Of a stretch of 64,000 bases of DNA, positions 1,711 through 34,587 are shown piece after piece (position 1 is the first letter of the stretch; each line of letters opens with the position of its first letter). The stretch comes from Burkholderiaceae bacterium (GTDB lineage Bacteria > Pseudomonadota > Gammaproteobacteria > Burkholderiales > Burkholderiaceae_B): assembly GCA_030158305.1 (NCBI GenBank), contig JAOATE010000007.1, positions 1-64,000 of the forward strand. The letters run 5' to 3'. A program made the position numbers and the translations under genes. A model generated the notes under the pieces. That model did not search any database, had not been told where the DNA came from, and saw only the letters and a program-made list of their open reading frames with translations.

Positions 1711-3060
1711 ATGTTTGAAAAGATTCTGATCGCCAATCGAGGCGAAATTGCATTGCGGATTCAACGCGCTTGCCGTGAAATGGGTATCAAGACCGTTGTC
1801 GTCCATTCCGAGGCCGATCGTGATGCCAAGTATGTGCGTCTGGCTGACGAGTCTGTCTGCATTGGCCCACCCGCGTCCCGCGATAGCTATCTCAATATGC
1901 CGGCGATCATCGCTGCAGCTGAAGTCACGGATGCAGAAGCGATTCATCCGGGTTATGGCTTCTTGTCTGAAAATGCAGATTTTGCAGATCGCGTGGAAAA
2001 GAGCGGTTTTGTTTTTATCGGACCTCGACCTGAGTCGATTCGTCTGATGGGCGACAAGGTCAGCGCAAAACACGCCATGATTGAGGCGGGTGTGCCTGTG
2101 GTGCCGGGTTCGGCGGGTGCCTTACCCGATGACCCCGCAGAGATTTTGCGTACAGCACGCGAGGTGGGATACCCAGTCATCATCAAGGCGGCAGGTGGCG
2201 GCGGTGGGCGCGGTATGCGCGTTGTCCATACTGAAGCTGCGTTACTGAATGCCGTCACGATGACTAAATCAGAGGCGGGCGCTGCCTTTAATAACCCTGA
2301 GGTTTATCTCGAAAAGTTTCTCGAAAACCCACGCCATATTGAAATTCAAGTGTTGGCGGATGGCGGCAAGAATGCTGTCTGGCTGGGTGAGCGCGATTGC
2401 TCGATGCAACGCCGTCACCAAAAAGTGATCGAAGAAGCGCCCGCCCCAGGAATTGATCGCAAGCTGATTGAAAAAATCGGTGAGCGTTGCGCTGAGGCCT
2501 GCCGCAAGATTGAATATCGAGGCGCAGGGACTTTTGAGTTTCTTTACGAAAACGGCGAGTTTTACTTTATTGAAATGAATACCCGGATTCAGGTTGAGCA
2601 TCCTGTGACAGAATTGATCACAGGGATTGACTTGGTACAGCAGCAAATTCGTGTTGCTGCAGGGGAGAAATTTCTCTTGCGTCAAAAAGATATTACGTTC
2701 CGCGGACATGCCGTCGAGTGCCGTATCAACGCTGAAGATCCTTTTAGCTTTATGCCTAGCCCAGGCCGCATCACTAACTGGCATACCCCCGGTGGTCCTG
2801 GTGTGCGTATCGACTCGCATGCGTTTAATGGCTATTTTGTGCCGCCCAACTACGACTCGATGATTGCTAAGGTCATCACGTATGGTGATACCCGCGCGCA
2901 GGCTGTGGCGCGGATGTCGATTGCCTTGTCAGAAATGGTGGTCGAAGGCATTAAAACCAATATTCCTTTGCATCGTGAACTGATGGCTGACGCTAAGTTT
3001 GTTGAGGGAGGCACGAGTATTCATTATCTCGAGCACAAACTTGCCTCACGAGCTGAATAA
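1711..3060 (+). CDS. accC: Acetyl-CoA carboxylase biotin carboxylase subunit
   Basis: ATP-dependent carboxylation of the biotin on AccB. The 449-residue chain has the expected order: N-terminal preATP-grasp domain starting [16 protein letters not shown], the ATP-grasp with the glycine-rich loop [12 protein letters not shown] near residue 160, metal- and bicarbonate-binding part [14 protein letters not shown] near 288-301, and the C-terminal biotin carboxylase domain. The length equals that of E. coli AccC. It begins 1 nt after accB and is followed by prmA after 11 nt, indicating one operon. Confidence 0.98.
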
Positions 3061-3071
3061 CGGAAACCACA

Positions 3072-3974
3072 ATGCGTGAACTGGTTCTGTTGTGCCCAGG
3101 CTCTCTCGCAGAGCCACTCTCTGACGGTTTACTGGAGTCAGGTGCCTTGTCTGTGTCTGTCGAAGACGCAGACCTCGATACTGACGAAGAGCAACCGCTG
3201 TTTGGGGAGCCGGGTAGCGAACCTAATACCCAAGCATGGGCGCGTAATCGTCTAGTGGTGCTGTTGGCAGATGGGACTGACCCTGAGCAGTTGCTGGCGA
3301 GTGCACGCGAGGACCTCGATACAGAAACGGTCTTGCCATGGCATTTACGTCAGGTGCCTGATGCGGACTGGGTGAGACTCACGCAATCACAATTTGGTCC
3401 GATCTCGGTGGGCAATCATATTCTGATCGTGCCGAGCTGGCATGCTGATCAGATGCCTGCCACACCAGAGGCCGGGCGGATCGCGATTCAATTGGACCCA
3501 GGCTTGGCTTTTGGTACAGGCAGCCATCCCACCACGCATCTTTGCCTGGAGTGGTTAGCCGATGAGCTACCCGCTGGCGCCACAGTGCTGGATTATGGTT
3601 GTGGATCTGGTATTTTGGCGATTGCGGCCAAAATGTTGGGTGCCTCAAGCGTAACGGGCGTCGATATTGATGAGCAAGCCGTTCAAGCGACAGCTGCCAA
3701 TGCGCTCGCCAATCAAACTGAAGTCAATGCGCAATTGCCCGAAGGCCTCAGAGAGGGGCAGTTCGATGTGGTCGTTGCCAACATTTTGTCTAATCCGCTG
3801 AAAGTGCTGGCACCGATGCTTTCGACGCGAGTCCGTTCTGGTGGCAGTCTAGTGCTGTCTGGTGTGCTTGAGCGACAGGCATTAGAGGTTGCAGAGGCCT
3901 ACGCGCCTTGGCTGCCAATGACCGTATGGCAGTCTCGCGATGGCTGGGTGTGTCTGGCTGGTCGCAAACCTTGA
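3072..3974 (+). CDS. prmA: Ribosomal protein L11 methyltransferase
   Basis: SAM-dependent methyltransferase that trimethylates ribosomal protein L11. The 300-residue protein has an N-terminal L11-recognition domain and a class I methyltransferase domain from about 145 with the SAM loop LDYGCGSGILAIAA, the acidic ribose-binding end GVDID, and the motif NILSNPL that corresponds to the substrate-site NILA/NP motif. It is directly downstream of accC with an 11-nt gap, the same accC-prmA neighbourhood as in Bordetella and relatives. Confidence 0.95.
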   Translation: MRELVLLCPGSLAEPLSDGLLESGALSVSVEDADLDTDEEQPLFGEPGSEPNTQAWARNRLVVLLADGTDPEQLLASAREDLDTETVLPWHLRQVPDADWVRLTQSQFGPISVGNHILIVPSWHADQMPATPEAGRIAIQLDPGLAFGTGSHPTTHLCLEWLADELPAGATVLDYGCGSGILAIAAKMLGASSVTGVDIDEQAVQATAANALANQTEVNAQLPEGLREGQFDVVVANILSNPLKVLAPMLSTRVRSGGSLVLSGVLERQALEVAEAYAPWLPMTVWQSRDGWVCLAGRKP

Positions 3975-3983
3975 GGTGAGCGC

Positions 3984-5003
3984 ATGAGTCTCGTGACACG
4001 TTGTCCAAAGTGCCAGAGCGATTTTGTCGTCAAGCTTGAGCAACTGCAAGCCCTTGATGGCTTGGTGCGATGTGGTGCCTGCTCGCATATTTTTGATGGT
4101 TTTTCTACATTGCAAAGTCAGTTGCCGACCTTGACCCAGCGTCCAGGGCTTGGCGCGATGGGGAGCGCATCATCTTCCGCACCCACACTGACAGTGGCAC
4201 CTGCACCAACGGTTATTTCTACTCCTGTTCCCATTGCTACACCATCAGTTGCCCCTGTGCCGACAGTGTTACGTCACCGCACTGAACGCACTGAGCCACG
4301 TACGTTGCCGGAGTCCGCCTCGCACACTGAACAAGTCGAGTCCAGCGAGAAACCGAGAGCCACTCAGCGCTTTTCTTTTTCTGCTAATTCAGCAGAGCAA
4401 GAGCAAGAGCGTTTGGACACAATGATCGTCGGTGAATCACGTTTGCGGGGAGACGGACCCTCTGTTGGTCGAACCCAGCCAGAGTTTTTGGTCGATGAAG
4501 TTGATACTCCGCAGTTAAAGATGTTGCTATGGAGCTTAGGCAGTATCTTGGCGCTTGGGTTACTTGTTGTGCAGTTGGCCTACGTCTTTCGTAATGATCT
4601 GGCGAGCCTTGTTCCTGCCTGGCGTCCTGTCCTTGAATCTCTTTGCGGTAAGCTGCGCTGTGAAGTCAGTTTGCGCCGACATCTTGAGCGAATTTCTGTC
4701 TCGGTCATCGCGTTCGAACGTCAGTCCGCTGCAGACCAAGAGTCTAAGTCTGCTGAAATGACTCTGAAATTCTCATTGCGTAATCGCTTTAATCAACCGC
4801 AACCTTGGCCTTATCTTTCTCTTGAGTTGACCGATGCGTCTGGGACAGTGGTGTTGAGAAAACGTCTGAGTCCGAATGAGTATCTGCCTGTTGCTTTGGT
4901 CGACAAGCCTTTTGCGGCCAGTCAGGAAGTCAGTCTAATGTTGCCCGTTACTGTGACAGGATTACAGATCAACGGCTATTCGCTTAAACCATTTTTTCCT
5001 TGA
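3984..5003 (+). CDS. Zinc-ribbon (MJ0042-type) DUF3426 membrane protein
   Basis: A 339-residue protein with an N-terminal zinc ribbon (CPKC at 7-10, CGAC at 30-33), a long Pro/Thr/Ala/Val-rich linker (about 50-150), one transmembrane helix around 176-197 (LLWSLGSILALGLLVVQLAY), and a C-terminal DUF3426 domain, which topology puts in the periplasm. The family is widespread in Betaproteobacteria beside prmA, but its function is unknown to me. Nine nt separate it from prmA and ten nt from the kinase, so it is in the same operon. A link of cytoplasmic metal/redox or ligand sensing to the envelope is inference only. Confidence 0.85.
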   Translation: MSLVTRCPKCQSDFVVKLEQLQALDGLVRCGACSHIFDGFSTLQSQLPTLTQRPGLGAMGSASSSAPTLTVAPAPTVISTPVPIATPSVAPVPTVLRHRTERTEPRTLPESASHTEQVESSEKPRATQRFSFSANSAEQEQERLDTMIVGESRLRGDGPSVGRTQPEFLVDEVDTPQLKMLLWSLGSILALGLLVVQLAYVFRNDLASLVPAWRPVLESLCGKLRCEVSLRRHLERISVSVIAFERQSAADQESKSAEMTLKFSLRNRFNQPQPWPYLSLELTDASGTVVLRKRLSPNEYLPVALVDKPFAASQEVSLMLPVTVTGLQINGYSLKPFFP

Positions 5004-6494: not shown

Positions 6495-7067
6495 CTAGAG
6501 AATGAATAGCGGGAAAAGTTGGTAGGTGATGCGGTTAACCACCATGATGGCGATTTGAGCCAATATCAACAATACGATGGGCGACAAGTCAAAACCGCCC
6601 AGGTTTGGCATAATGCGACGGATGGGTTCCAGCAGGGGGCCTGTCATCGTGCGCAATACGGGCATGATCGTTGCCATCGGGTTCATCCATGACAGCACGG
6701 CCTGAATCAAAGTCAGCCAGACAATCAAATTGAGCGCCCAGCGCGCAACGGTTGCGAAGCCTGCGCCAAGCACACCGGGTATGAGTTTGACAGGCAACAT
6801 GCTGGTGGTTGATACCAGCCACAATAAAACGAGATACACCACTGCAACGATCAAGGCGCCAAGTAGGCTGGCCCAGTCTGTCCCGCCGCCCGTGGGCACC
6901 ACTCGGCGAAGTGGCGTGACGAGCCAGTTGGTCGCCTGGATGATCGCTTGAGAAATGGGGTTGAAGGGGTGTAGTTTGACCGCATGCAACCAGGCGCGCG
7001 CTAGAAGCACCGCACCGATGAGCGTAAAAACAATATCAAGAATAAAGCGGAGTATTTCGCCAATCAT
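6495..7067 (-). CDS. yggT: YggT-family integral membrane protein
   Basis: A 190-residue membrane protein with two copies of the YGGT module. Each copy has a hydrophobic helix pair separated by an amphipathic LNP/HPFNPISQ-type stretch (HPFNPISQAII near 33-43 and SWMNPMATIMPVLR near 125-138). The family is usually found near the pyrroline reductase proC or in cell-division contexts; here proC is not adjacent. Its molecular role is not established with certainty. It reads toward, and ends 12 nt from, the glycine-zipper lipoprotein. Confidence 0.9.
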   Translation of the reverse strand: MIGEILRFILDIVFTLIGAVLLARAWLHAVKLHPFNPISQAIIQATNWLVTPLRRVVPTGGGTDWASLLGALIVAVVYLVLLWLVSTTSMLPVKLIPGVLGAGFATVARWALNLIVWLTLIQAVLSWMNPMATIMPVLRTMTGPLLEPIRRIMPNLGGFDLSPIVLLILAQIAIMVVNRITYQLFPLFIL

Positions 7068-7154: not shown

Positions 7155-7184
7155 AAAAAAGCCGCCTGGCGAACCAGGCGGCTA
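7155..7184 (-). terminator. Rho-independent terminator of the histone H1-like gene
   Basis: On the minus strand a 10-bp perfect stem (AGCCGCCTGG pairing with CCAGGCGGCT, positions 7160-7183) with a four-base loop is followed by a run of six U. It lies 26 nt beyond the TGA that closes the -1 frame of the histone gene but 148 nt beyond its in-frame TAG. This placement supports the longer reading as the native gene. Confidence 0.9.
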
Positions 7185-7209: not shown

Positions 7210-7335
7210 TCAGGGACGGCCACCCGTAGGAAAGGGCCAAGACGCAGCAGGATTCAGGGCAGTTTTTGCACCTGGAGCTGCGGCTGTCGAGGGGGCGGCG
7301 GCTGCCGGCTTTTTAGCAGCAGGTTTTTTAACTAT
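7210..7335 (-). other. C-terminal coding extension of the histone H1-like gene in the -1 frame
   Basis: Reading on from the A10 run in the -1 frame gives 41 more residues before a TGA at 7212-7210. The peptide begins IVKKPAAKKPAAAAPSTAA and ends NPAASWPFPTGGRP. It continues the Lys/Ala/Pro composition, and as I recall the NPAA-WPFPTG tail matches the C-terminus of histone H1-like proteins of Alcaligenaceae. Thus the real protein is probably about 164 residues. The frame change could be a programmed -1 shift or RNA polymerase slippage at the A run, a phase-variable tract, or a base-call error in the homopolymer. Confidence 0.8.
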
Positions 7336-7703
7336 TTTTTTTTTGCAGCAACTTTTGTAGCTGCTGGCTTTTTAGCAACGGCTTTTTTGGCCGCAGGCTT
7401 AGCTGCTACTTTTTTGACTGCAGGCTTCTTTGCTGCAACTTTTTTGACTGCTTTTTTAGCAACGACTTTCTTTGCTGCAGGCTTTTTAGCGGCGACTTTT
7501 TTCGCTGCTGGCTTTTTAGCCGCTGCTTTTTTCGCTACTTTCTTGACTGCTTTTTTAGCAACGACTTTCTTTGCTGCAGGCTTCTTAGCAGCAACTTTCT
7601 TTACTGCTGCTGGCTTCTTTGCAACGACTTTTTTAGCTGCAACTGGCTTCTTTGCTGCGGCTTTTTTCACTGCTTTTTTTGCTGCTTTTTTGGCTGTTGC
7701 CAT
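7332..7703 (-). CDS. Histone H1-like Lys/Ala-rich DNA-binding protein (zero frame)
   Basis: The in-frame product is 123 residues made almost entirely of Lys, Ala, Val and Pro in tandem AAKKPAAKKV-type repeats, as in the Bordetella histone H1 homologue and other eukaryotic-H1-tail-like nucleoid proteins. Such proteins bind and compact DNA without sequence specificity. A strong AAGGAG site precedes the ATG. The zero frame closes at TAG right after GC-A10 (run at 7335-7344), while the downstream -1 frame (7210-7335) carries the expected family tail. The repetitive low-complexity DNA is prone to indels. The open frame on the opposite strand is a composition artefact. Confidence 0.9.
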   Translation of the reverse strand: MATAKKAAKKAVKKAAAKKPVAAKKVVAKKPAAVKKVAAKKPAAKKVVAKKAVKKVAKKAAAKKPAAKKVAAKKPAAKKVVAKKAVKKVAAKKPAVKKVAAKPAAKKAVAKKPAATKVAAKKK

Positions 7704-7963: not shown

Positions 7964-7990
7964 TTATTCCCAATTGGCTTATTCCCAATT
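7964..7990 (-). repeat. 15-bp tandem duplication across the nrdB stop codon
   Basis: On the minus strand the last codons of nrdB, AATTGGGAATAA (Asn-Trp-Glu-stop), are followed by GCC and then an exact second copy of AATTGGGAATAA. The period is 15 bp, so the second copy is in the same frame: readthrough of the first TAA would add only Ala-Asn-Trp-Glu before a second TAA. It looks like a recent slipped-strand duplication. Confidence 0.85.
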
Positions 7991-9184
7991 GAGGGCGCCT
8001 CCGGTCTGATACTCAATCACACGTGTTTCAAAGAAATTGCGTTCCTTCTTTAGGTCAATCATTTCCGCCATCCAAGGAAAGGGATTTTCTTCTTGGGCGA
8101 ACAGAGGTTCGATGCCGATCTGCTGGCAACGACGATTAGCGATAAAGCGCAGGTATGACTTAAACATGGGCGCATTCAGACCCAACACGCCACGTGGCAT
8201 GGTGTCTTCGGCGTAAGCATATTCAAGATCGACCGCTTTGGCGAACAGCGCGCGAATTTCTTCGCGGAAGGCTGGCGTCCAGAGTTGTGGGTTTTCGAGC
8301 TTGATGGTGTTGATCAGATCGATACCGAAGTTGCAGTGCATGGACTCATCGCGCAGGATGTACATGTATTGCTCGGCGGCGCCGGTCATTTTATTTTGAC
8401 GACCCAGCGCAAGAATCTGGGTAAAGCCTACATAAAAGAACAAGCCTTCCATCAGGCAGGCAAACACAATCAGGGACTTCAACAGCGTCTGATCCGCTTC
8501 GAGTGTGCCGGTTTTGAAGTTCGGGTCTGCGATCGCGTCAATAAAAGGAATCAGGAATTGATCCTTGGCACGAATCGAAGGCACTTCGTTGTAAGCGTTG
8601 AAAATTTCGGACTCATCGAGATCCAGACTTTCAACGATGTATTGATAAGCGTGTGTATGGATGGCCTCTTCGAAGGCCTGGCGCAATAAAAACTGGCGGC
8701 ATTCGGGAGCCGTGATGTGGCGATAGGTGCCCAGCACGATATTGTTGGCGGCCAAAGAGTCTGCCGTCACAAAGAAACCGAGGTTGCGCTTGATAATACG
8801 GCGTTCGTCTTCAGTCAATCCGGTTGGATTTTTCCAAAGCGCGATGTCGCGCGACATGTTGATCTCTTGCGGCATCCAGTGGTTGGCGCAGGTCGCGATG
8901 TATTTTTCCCAAGCCCATTTGTATTTGAAGGGCACGAGTTGATTGACATCGGTCTGACCGTTGATGATGCGCTTGTCGGCAACATTGACGCGTCTTGCGG
9001 GATCCGTTGCAACCGGTGCCTGTGTCAGGCCGGGCGTTGGTAAAGCAGTATCACCAAACACACCTGTGGCTGCACGCGCAGACATGGAGGCAGCGAGTGA
9101 TGCAGGTTGTACGGAGGAAAGCGCTCCACCCAAGCCAACTGGCGGGGTGGTTGCGGTCGTAGGTTCGTCGTTCCAGCTAAGCAT
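7979..9184 (-). CDS. nrdB: Ribonucleoside-diphosphate reductase class Ia, beta (R2) subunit
   Basis: Houses the di-iron/tyrosyl radical cofactor that starts ribonucleotide reduction in NrdA. The 401-residue chain has a variable N-terminal tail (about 1-65), then the ferritin-like core. Iron ligands and radical residues are visible: Asp in TADSLAANN, Glu and His in [11 protein letters not shown] with the radical Tyr four residues after that His, Glu in LMEGLFFY, and Glu/His in [10 protein letters not shown]. The C-terminal peptide GGALNWE is the NrdA-docking tail. nrdB lies 21 nt downstream of nrdA, so they form one operon, probably under NrdR. Confidence 0.97.
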
Positions 9185-33165: not shown

Positions 33166-34587
33166 ATGTCCCTGATGTTAAAAAAAAATGAAAATGCATC
33201 TATCCGAGAAATCGTGGGGTGGTCTTCTCTTTTAGTTCTTCCTCCTGCGTTGTATTTTTTAGGAGTTGCGTACGCGTTGACCGTTCAGGCGGCTCTGTTC
33301 GTTTCTATTCTGACTGTTGTGATTTTGATGTGGTTATTCAACTTAGTGGATGATTACATCCCACCCCTTCTCGGGATGGTGGCAGCACTTCTTTTTGGGC
33401 TCGCCCCCGCATCCGTTGCGCTCTCTGGTTTGTCCTCTCCCAGCTTGATCACTTTAATGGGAGTGTTTGCGTTAGCTTCTGTGATTACGAGCTCTGGATT
33501 AGGTCGCAGATTTGTTCTGAGTATGCTCAACAAAGTCCCCAACCGATTTTTTTTACAAGAAAACATTTTGGTCTGTTGTGGACTGTTGCTGTCTGTCGTT
33601 TCACCTTCGGGTAATAGTCGCGTGACATTAGTGTTGCCACTATTTAAAGAAATTAGTGATGCGATGAATTTGCCGAAACGCGGTAAGGCGATCACTTCTT
33701 TGATGGCGGCTACGTATGGCGGTGCAATGTTATTTTCTACGGCCTTGTCTAATAGCAAGTCCGCGAGTATTGCTGCTTTGAGTATGCTTCCTATTTATTT
33801 GCAAGACCAGTATCTGGGTGTGTTCTGGATCATGGCGGCAAGTGTGCCGATGGTTGTATTGCTACTGATACATTTCCTATCGGTACGCATCATGTTTTCA
33901 AATGAAGAGCCCAAAGCGCTCTCAAAGGAAATTCTTGTTGCGCATCTAAAAGAGCTCGGACCGCTCAGTGCGAAGGAACGTACCGCAAGTGTGGCCTTTA
34001 TATTTTTCTTTTTTGGTTCGCTGACAAGTGGTTTGCATCACATTGGCACCGCGAGTATTGCCGGTATGACAATCCTCTTATTGTTGGTGATGGGGGCCTT
34101 CAATAAGATTGATTTTCAAAGGTCGATGGACTGGCCGATGATTTTTTTCATGCTGTGTATGGATAGCATGATGCGTACCATGGCTCATTTGGGATTGGAT
34201 CAACAGCTTTCAAATGCAGTGGGCTCTTTCTTTGCATTCGTAGATGGTAGTTTTATTCTGTATATGTTGGCCACTTTAGTCGTCACTCTAGTGTTACGGT
34301 TAGCATTTCCCGTCGCGGCAGGGATGTTATTGAGTTTCCTCGTCATGTTACCTGTCACGTTATCCCAGGGTTACAGTCCGTGGGTGTGCGTATTCATGAC
34401 TGCAATTTTTAGTGATATCTGGTTTTTTCGTTACCAAAATTCAGTTTTCCTCATCATATGGAATTCTGAGTCTGTTGATGACTTTGACTATCAACTATTC
34501 ATGCGTCACAACATGATCATGAATTTTGCGCGTGTATTTTGTGTACTTGTGGCGATTCCATTTTGGTCGTGGATGTCGATGATATGA
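33166..34587 (+). CDS. DASS/SLC13-type sodium:carboxylate symporter
   Basis: A 473-residue polytopic membrane protein with about 11-12 hydrophobic helices. The family features are a first repeat SPSGNSRVTLVLPLF and the segment ALSNSKSASIAALSMLPIY, which takes the place of the SNT motifs of divalent anion symporters, and the duplicated half with MIFFMLCMDSMM and FPVAAGMLLSFLVMLPV. It likely imports a dicarboxylate or similar anion. Its stop TGA overlaps the ATG of the binding-protein gene (ATGA), indicating coupled synthesis. A run of nine A lies just after the start (33180-33190). Confidence 0.8.
   Translation: MSLMLKKNENASIREIVGWSSLLVLPPALYFLGVAYALTVQAALFVSILTVVILMWLFNLVDDYIPPLLGMVAALLFGLAPASVALSGLSSPSLITLMGVFALASVITSSGLGRRFVLSMLNKVPNRFFLQENILVCCGLLLSVVSPSGNSRVTLVLPLFKEISDAMNLPKRGKAITSLMAATYGGAMLFSTALSNSKSASIAALSMLPIYLQDQYLGVFWIMAASVPMVVLLLIHFLSVRIMFSNEEPKALSKEILVAHLKELGPLSAKERTASVAFIFFFFGSLTSGLHHIGTASIAGMTILLLLVMGAFNKIDFQRSMDWPMIFFMLCMDSMMRTMAHLGLDQQLSNAVGSFFAFVDGSFILYMLATLVVTLVLRLAFPVAAGMLLSFLVMLPVTLSQGYSPWVCVFMTAIFSDIWFFRYQNSVFLIIWNSESVDDFDYQLFMRHNMIMNFARVFCVLVAIPFWSWMSMI

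Follow-up and report, generated by a model that had tools for sequence, protein, structure and literature searches.

The dnaX gene of E. coli yields its two products, tau and gamma, by -1 ribosomal frameshifting. Slippage-rescued genes of insect endosymbionts are reportedly the subject of a 2010 study by Wernegreen. For tssM1 of Citrobacter rodentium, PMC4256274 describes a run of eleven A that gives rise to transcripts with 10–15 A and to two proteins by RNA polymerase slippage; frameshifting amounts to 20–25%, and both forms and their ratio are needed. In tssM3 of Yersinia pseudotuberculosis, it is instead the short form that arises by slippage, and the efficiencies of the cases it lists range from 15 to 55% (PMC4256274). 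According to PMC6260861, the enterobacterial polymerase slips on runs of nine A or T upwards, and the direction is variable.

Here we compare with these systems a histone H1-like gene from Burkholderiaceae bacterium (assembly GCA_030158305.1, contig JAOATE010000007.1). The window, i.e. the whole stretch of DNA that was analysed, comprises 64,000 nucleotides. The gene and its surroundings are laid out as follows:

7332..7703, minus strand: histone H1-like gene in the 0 frame (ATG 7703..7701, TAG 7334..7332), encoding a Lys/Ala/Pro protein of 123 aa, the short form
7335..7344, minus strand: run of ten A, the proposed slippery site, read in the 0 frame as GCA AAA AAA AAA TAG
7213..7335, minus strand: conserved tail of 41 codons in the -1 frame (IVKKPAAKKPAAAAPSTAAAPGAKTALNPAASWPFPTGGRP), recognized by frame reading, a match to NF038053 and purifying selection
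7210..7212, minus strand: TGA stop of the tail, from frame reading
7160..7183, minus strand: intrinsic-terminator-like stem-loop of 10 pairs (8 of them G-C), followed by a T run (TTTTT)
7979..9184, minus strand: nrdB-like gene, an ORF upstream on the same strand; similar DNA is annotated as ribonucleotide-diphosphate reductase subunit beta
6495..7067, minus strand: YggT-family gene downstream, given for context only (Pfam PF02325, 101.6 bits)

The 0-frame protein begins with MATAKKAAKK and, as the initial annotation had stated, its TAG stands directly 3' of GC-A10. Past the run, the -1 frame reads KKKIVKKPAAKKPAAAAPSTAAAPGAKTALNPAASWPFPTGGRP up to the TGA, and its 41 codons end in NPAASWPFPTGGRP. 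The product spanning both frames would have 123 + 41 = 164 aa, in line with the length of about 164 residues given there, and the 26 nt between the TGA and the stem-loop, described as a strong terminator, were likewise found.

A10 occurs a single time in the 2.62-Mb assembly when both strands are scanned, and A9 has 17 matches, with the H1-like run counted twice. Three A9 matches fall into the window, which is not unusual, since 30 of 100 shuffles reach the same number. The length of the run alone is therefore not evidence; the evidence lies in the relatives. The only other A9 run within the window is at 33180-33188 on the plus strand.

The short protein and the tail cover successive parts of the NCBIfam model NF038053 (195 positions). 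Scored separately and not as a joined product, the 0-frame protein matches positions 1–137 with 39.6 bits and the tail positions 150–195 with 48 bits, each on its own below the 80-bit cut-off. Against Pfam HC2 (PF07382), the 0-frame protein reaches 39.7 bits, with a cut-off of 40. Elsewhere in the same genome, NF038053 finds just two weaker matches. The product, lysine-rich in composition, is a putative DNA-binding protein.

The genus of the window takes in Zwartia hollandica, Z. panacis, Z. vadi and Jezberella montanilacus. A tail pattern was found in 28 of its 32 genomes, and a different pattern adds a 29th. There are 23 genes with a visible start, a count that leaves out L016 and L023 (A10-TAG present, start not visible) and L025–L028 (contig ends ahead of the run). 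Twenty of the 23, the window gene among them, carry their tail in the -1 frame. Eighteen of these sites read GCA AAA AAA AAA TAG, one GTA AAA AAA AAG TAG and one GCA AAA AAA AAG TAG. The other three genes are in frame, two with A10 (L015 and L176) and one with A9 (L022). We could observe the same layout in isolates, namely Z. hollandica (L131), Z. panacis (L104), Z. vadi (L076) and J. montanilacus (L060).

Of 268 family genomes, 29 have a run of nine or more A near the tail (25 belong to the window's genus, three to g51 and one to g64); across the order, 7 of 399 genomes do, namely the window's genome and six Polynucleobacter. In the three g51 genomes the tail is in frame. The g64 locus (L175, genome G274) has its A9 in a lysine-rich frame that is open for 283 codons upstream; the 0-frame stop follows 21 nt after the run, and KKVTNTLKSPDVWPFPTGSSRP is found in another frame. 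L175 may be a third example with a tail of this kind; the tail-plus-run pattern matched one of seven g64 genomes.

Polynucleobacter belongs to another family. When named genomes were scanned for A9 or longer ahead of the tail, at least 119 stretches came up, many of them from this genus; the scan served for names and examples, and rates were taken from the tail-based searches. These found the tail in 170 of 186 Polynucleobacter genomes, and 110 of the 170 tail-bearing loci were read (L205–L314; 30 from the search output and 80 picked along the list). The tail scored as -1 in 85 loci, two of which (L254, L257) were set aside because their 0-frame stop lies elsewhere, leaving 83 with a -1 tail and the stop at the run. 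Eighteen loci are in frame, in two the tail occupies the other shifted frame, and five show no visible start (L206, L223, L231, L256, L292). The usual site is GCA AAA AAA AAG TAA (62 loci) or GTA AAA AAA AAG TAA (16 loci), mostly A9-G-TAA; the remaining shifted sites are four with GCT (A8) and one with GAA (A10). The run of the in-frame loci is A10 or A11 in eight cases and A7 in one; the other nine contain no run of seven or more within the 170 nt examined. The two loci in the other shifted frame (L222, L252) carry A8, and one added A would not restore their tail; they may reflect gene decay, errors or a different mode of slippage.

In all 103 shifted genes of the two genera (20 + 83), the 0-frame stop follows 0 or 1 nt after the run, and in all of them one added A, or a -1 ribosomal shift, would bring the tail into frame, against two genes in the other shifted frame; these locus counts are not independent, since the species share ancestry. 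The initial annotation had noted that a switch of tract length or a base-call error would look the same. A switch in the DNA of individual cells would agree with the lengths of 7, 8, 9, 10 and 11 seen between species, and with A7 (L237) and A11 (L289) being in frame. However, the lengths are not scattered, with A9 in 78 of 83 shifted Polynucleobacter genes and A10 in 18 of 20 shifted genes of the window's genus (one genome per species was sampled), and the same frame relation is kept in 103 genes against two. Phase variation is thus very improbable. Although homopolymers are error-prone and the window's assembly consists of 97 contigs, a sequencing or assembly error or a pseudogene is hardly credible. 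The same break recurs in 103 genes, in isolates as well as in MAGs, including Zwartia, Jezberella and many Polynucleobacter isolates, and the tail is under purifying selection. We therefore reject sequencing error for the group.

Selection was evident when the tails were read in their own frame. In the window's genus, pS was 0.352 and pN 0.033 for 19 distinct, equally long tails out of 20. The corresponding values in Polynucleobacter, where 43 of 78 distinct sequences were scored, were 0.223/0.057 (26 distinct) and 0.267/0.136 (17 distinct). In other frames this pattern was reversed or lost, which argues that the tail is most likely translated. A restart of translation inside the tail is unlikely in the window's genus, as there are only two candidate starts (GTG) in 20 tails; the genus tail is probably reached from upstream. 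The 78 Polynucleobacter sequences contain 93 TTG/GTG codons in their tails, at unscored positions, so the argument against a restart applies to the window's genus only.

We consider it likely that the A run is a conserved site of transcriptional slippage from which a short and a long protein are made. Most transcripts would copy the run faithfully (A10 in the window, A9 in most Polynucleobacter), and their translation would stop at the TAG or TAA at its end, giving a protein without the tail (123 aa in the window). In a fraction of transcripts the RNA polymerase would slip back and add one A, which would place the conserved tail in frame and give the long form (164 aa in the window). Both forms would hold the whole lysine-rich part and differ solely in the tail ending WPFPTG. 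Slippage itself, its transcriptional nature, its efficiency and the use of both forms are what we infer from the conserved layout. The two proteins proposed in the initial annotation, which left ribosomal and polymerase slippage both open, thus gain support from the conservation (20 of 23 and 83 of 110 genes) and stay a prediction, in which the ribosome may have a share in Polynucleobacter.

Several features of the sites agree with slippage of the polymerase. An A run of about nine or more stands at the frame junction (A10 in the window, 9–10 A in 99 of 103 shifted genes), and the downstream frame can be reached by a change in its length, with one added A in 103 of all 105 shifted genes. Against this, L214, L228, L241 and L272 of Polynucleobacter keep only A8, below the usual threshold, and still contain A-AAA-AAG. 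The direction also favours the polymerase, because one A more is reported as the commonest outcome for transcript insertions in A/T runs: according to PMC5574713, what E. coli and Buchnera transcripts gain in such runs is mostly a single A or T. On the other side, that study saw no transcription error that put a gene back in frame (PMC5574713), and according to PMC6260861 poly-A makes the E. coli polymerase slip less readily than poly-T does; both points count against slippage on poly-A.

A is the last base of the codon before the lysine run (Ala, Val or Glu) in 79 of the 83 shifted genes of Polynucleobacter and in 20 of 20 of the window's genus. For other codons before Lys, this holds for 210 of 1354 in Polynucleobacter (85 genes, including L254 and L257) and 114 of 410 in the window's genus. 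The nrdB-like gene, found by tblastn at most H1-like loci of both genera, served to build a tree. On the nrdB tree, the identity of the pre-run codon changes at least nine times among 96 shifted loci, and its A/non-A state only twice. A control codon one position further upstream ends in A in 51 of the 96 and changes its identity 22 times. The local bias towards A, and with it towards a long run at this place, is therefore real but less strong than the figure of 210/1354 suggests.

Programmed -1 ribosomal frameshifting at A-AAA-AAA or A-AAA-AAG just ahead of the stop would give the same two proteins, and we regard it as unlikely to be the main route. The heptamer, called a classic slippery site in the initial annotation, is indeed present in the 0 frame at all 103 shifted sites (as A-AAA-AAG in Polynucleobacter), including those with A8. 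Alone, however, it does not explain the data: in 38 of the 103 genes (16 of 20 in the window's genus, 22 of 83 in Polynucleobacter), in-frame copies of A-AAA-AAA or A-AAA-AAG stand upstream without the stop layout, and the window gene has its own at codon 8. Yet no A run of eight or more lies upstream of the site in any of the 103 genes, which is why polymerase slippage is preferred. The kept A ahead of the heptamer points in the same direction, since a ribosomal heptamer does not need it.

With regard to stimulators, at least 62 of the 78 distinct sequences from Polynucleobacter allow a hairpin of at least six pairs that begins 6–10 nt downstream (counts without a shuffled control), the commonest being GCCTGCT/AGCGGGC at 7 nt; the stem-loop of the dnaX type stands at 5–9 nt. 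Seven of the 78 gave no hairpin. With a shuffled control, the 45 nt from +4 have a mean z of -1.87 in this genus. In the window's genus, however, a comparable downstream structure is absent (mean z -0.4 to -0.9) and no stable consensus helix lies directly beside the site. A Shine-Dalgarno-like motif as in dnaX was seen in the 18 nt upstream at 0 of 96 sites. A universal ribosomal stimulator is therefore rejected. A ribosomal share, or a mixed mechanism, is possible in Polynucleobacter.

It is also possible, though rather unlikely, that the break is a tolerated accident: the slippery run would make loss or gain of an A nearly neutral, repair by slippage would keep the break, and the two forms would not be useful. 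This may hold together with slippage of the polymerase. A similar rescue in 12–50% of transcripts is described for insect endosymbionts in PMC5009743. In-frame relatives with A10 occur in both genera (L015, L176, L225, L244, L253, L284, L291, L293, L313), and on the nrdB DNA tree of 123 loci, in-frame and -1 members alternate, with at least ten changes. This tree is short (450 columns), leaves 58 of 120 inner branches open and places L003 on a very long branch. On the other hand, the -1 state is found on either side of early forks within Polynucleobacter (support for several is weak), and the break has nearly always the same direction. Moreover, the run invariably ends at the stop, while decay would scatter stops. 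A9 runs are also few in most of these genomes: five main-group Polynucleobacter have 5–9 matches, and others have more (G654 has 9, G775 6, G706 15, G772 28 and G693 53, and members of the window's genus have 17–29). The two genera may share a single origin of the run or may have converged; in our sample of the order, the run stands beside the tail only in these two.

The two-form state is not indispensable. Relatives with one uninterrupted frame, which the initial annotation had named as counter-evidence, are L002–L005 from four other genera of the family (no run) together with the 3 of 23 and 18 of 110 in-frame loci, nine of the latter 18 without a long run; the rest carry the break. In four in-frame A10 loci (L036, L066, L075, L090), a stop follows 1 nt after the run in one of the other frames and 5 nt after it in the other, and slippage there would give the short form. 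Different roles for the two forms, and a ratio that follows growth or nucleotide pools, are conjecture.

Five main-group Polynucleobacter genomes contain one other A9, 1.7–1.8 kb downstream of the H1-like run and on the opposite strand. It lies in frame at the junction of what we take, by eye, to be a PrmA-like protein and a C-terminal membrane domain. Within Polynucleobacter, the loci concerned are L318–L322, L329–L358, L374 and L377. Fifty loci were examined, 34 of which have the PrmA end motif, and in 31 of these 34 the junction contains an in-frame A9, with a varying linker; 30 of the 34 are the loci most similar to the query. Sixteen of 20 further chosen loci lack the motif, probably because the stretch does not cover it, and give no answer. 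Stops in the other frames mostly follow 4–21 nt on, so that slippage would yield a soluble PrmA lacking the membrane part. In the window (3000-5003, plus strand), the PrmA-like frame and the gene at 3984-5003 are separate, whereas the Polynucleobacter PrmA runs into the membrane part. Another Polynucleobacter A9 (L327) lies near the start of an open frame, in frame; this frame presumably resembles a UDP-GlcNAc 2-epimerase-like gene.

These bacteria live in fresh water, mostly free. A bolder reading, which we think improbable, is that poly-A slippage acts as a standing chromatin control in two freshwater lineages. Polymerase slippage would set the share of protein with the WPFPTG tail, perhaps following nucleotide pools or growth state, and Polynucleobacter would have a second switch about 1.75 kb away that frees soluble PrmA from a membrane-anchored fusion.

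If slippage at the H1-like gene is true, it would be a widely conserved bacterial case in which one histone-like gene gives two proteins, in genera from which strains have been cultured. The effect of run length could be studied on some hundred natural variants (A7 to A11, in and out of frame), and the role of the conserved WPFPTG tail would become testable. Gene callers that ignore slippage would report a truncated protein at this gene. No report of frameshifting in the H1-like gene of these bacteria was found in the literature searched, with most subscription papers and all supplements outside it; in a term search of PMC3711429, both 'histone' and 'Polynucleobacter' were absent.

Compared with the Burkholderiales histone H1-like protein (NF038053/PF07382), the window gene has the same lysine-rich part and tail and differs in being broken, while L002–L005 have a single uninterrupted frame without the run. 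With dnaX, it would share two C-terminal forms and shares, at the Polynucleobacter sites, the A-AAA-AAG heptamer. It has no upstream Shine-Dalgarno-like element, a hairpin is found in most Polynucleobacter sequences and not in the window's genus, and the shift would lengthen the protein. The insect endosymbionts Buchnera and Blochmannia have poly-A frame breaks of a like kind that are rescued in part of the transcripts, according to PMC5009743; their genomes are very small and A+T-rich, whereas A9 is fairly rare in the window's genome. According to PMC4256274, tssM1 and tssM3 share with the H1-like gene a poly-A run before a stop, a C-terminal part in another frame and products of two lengths, the latter being a prediction for the H1-like gene. 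The C-terminal part of tssM1 lies in the +1 frame, with the stop 28 nt after the run, whereas the H1-like tail is in the -1 frame with the stop at the end of the run; the H1-like case moreover concerns a histone-like protein, extends over 103 genes in two genera of different families and is known from sequence alone. The split between tssM1 and tssM3, with slippage giving the long or the short form, resembles the situation here, where in-frame members with A10 occur beside shifted ones with A9 or A10.
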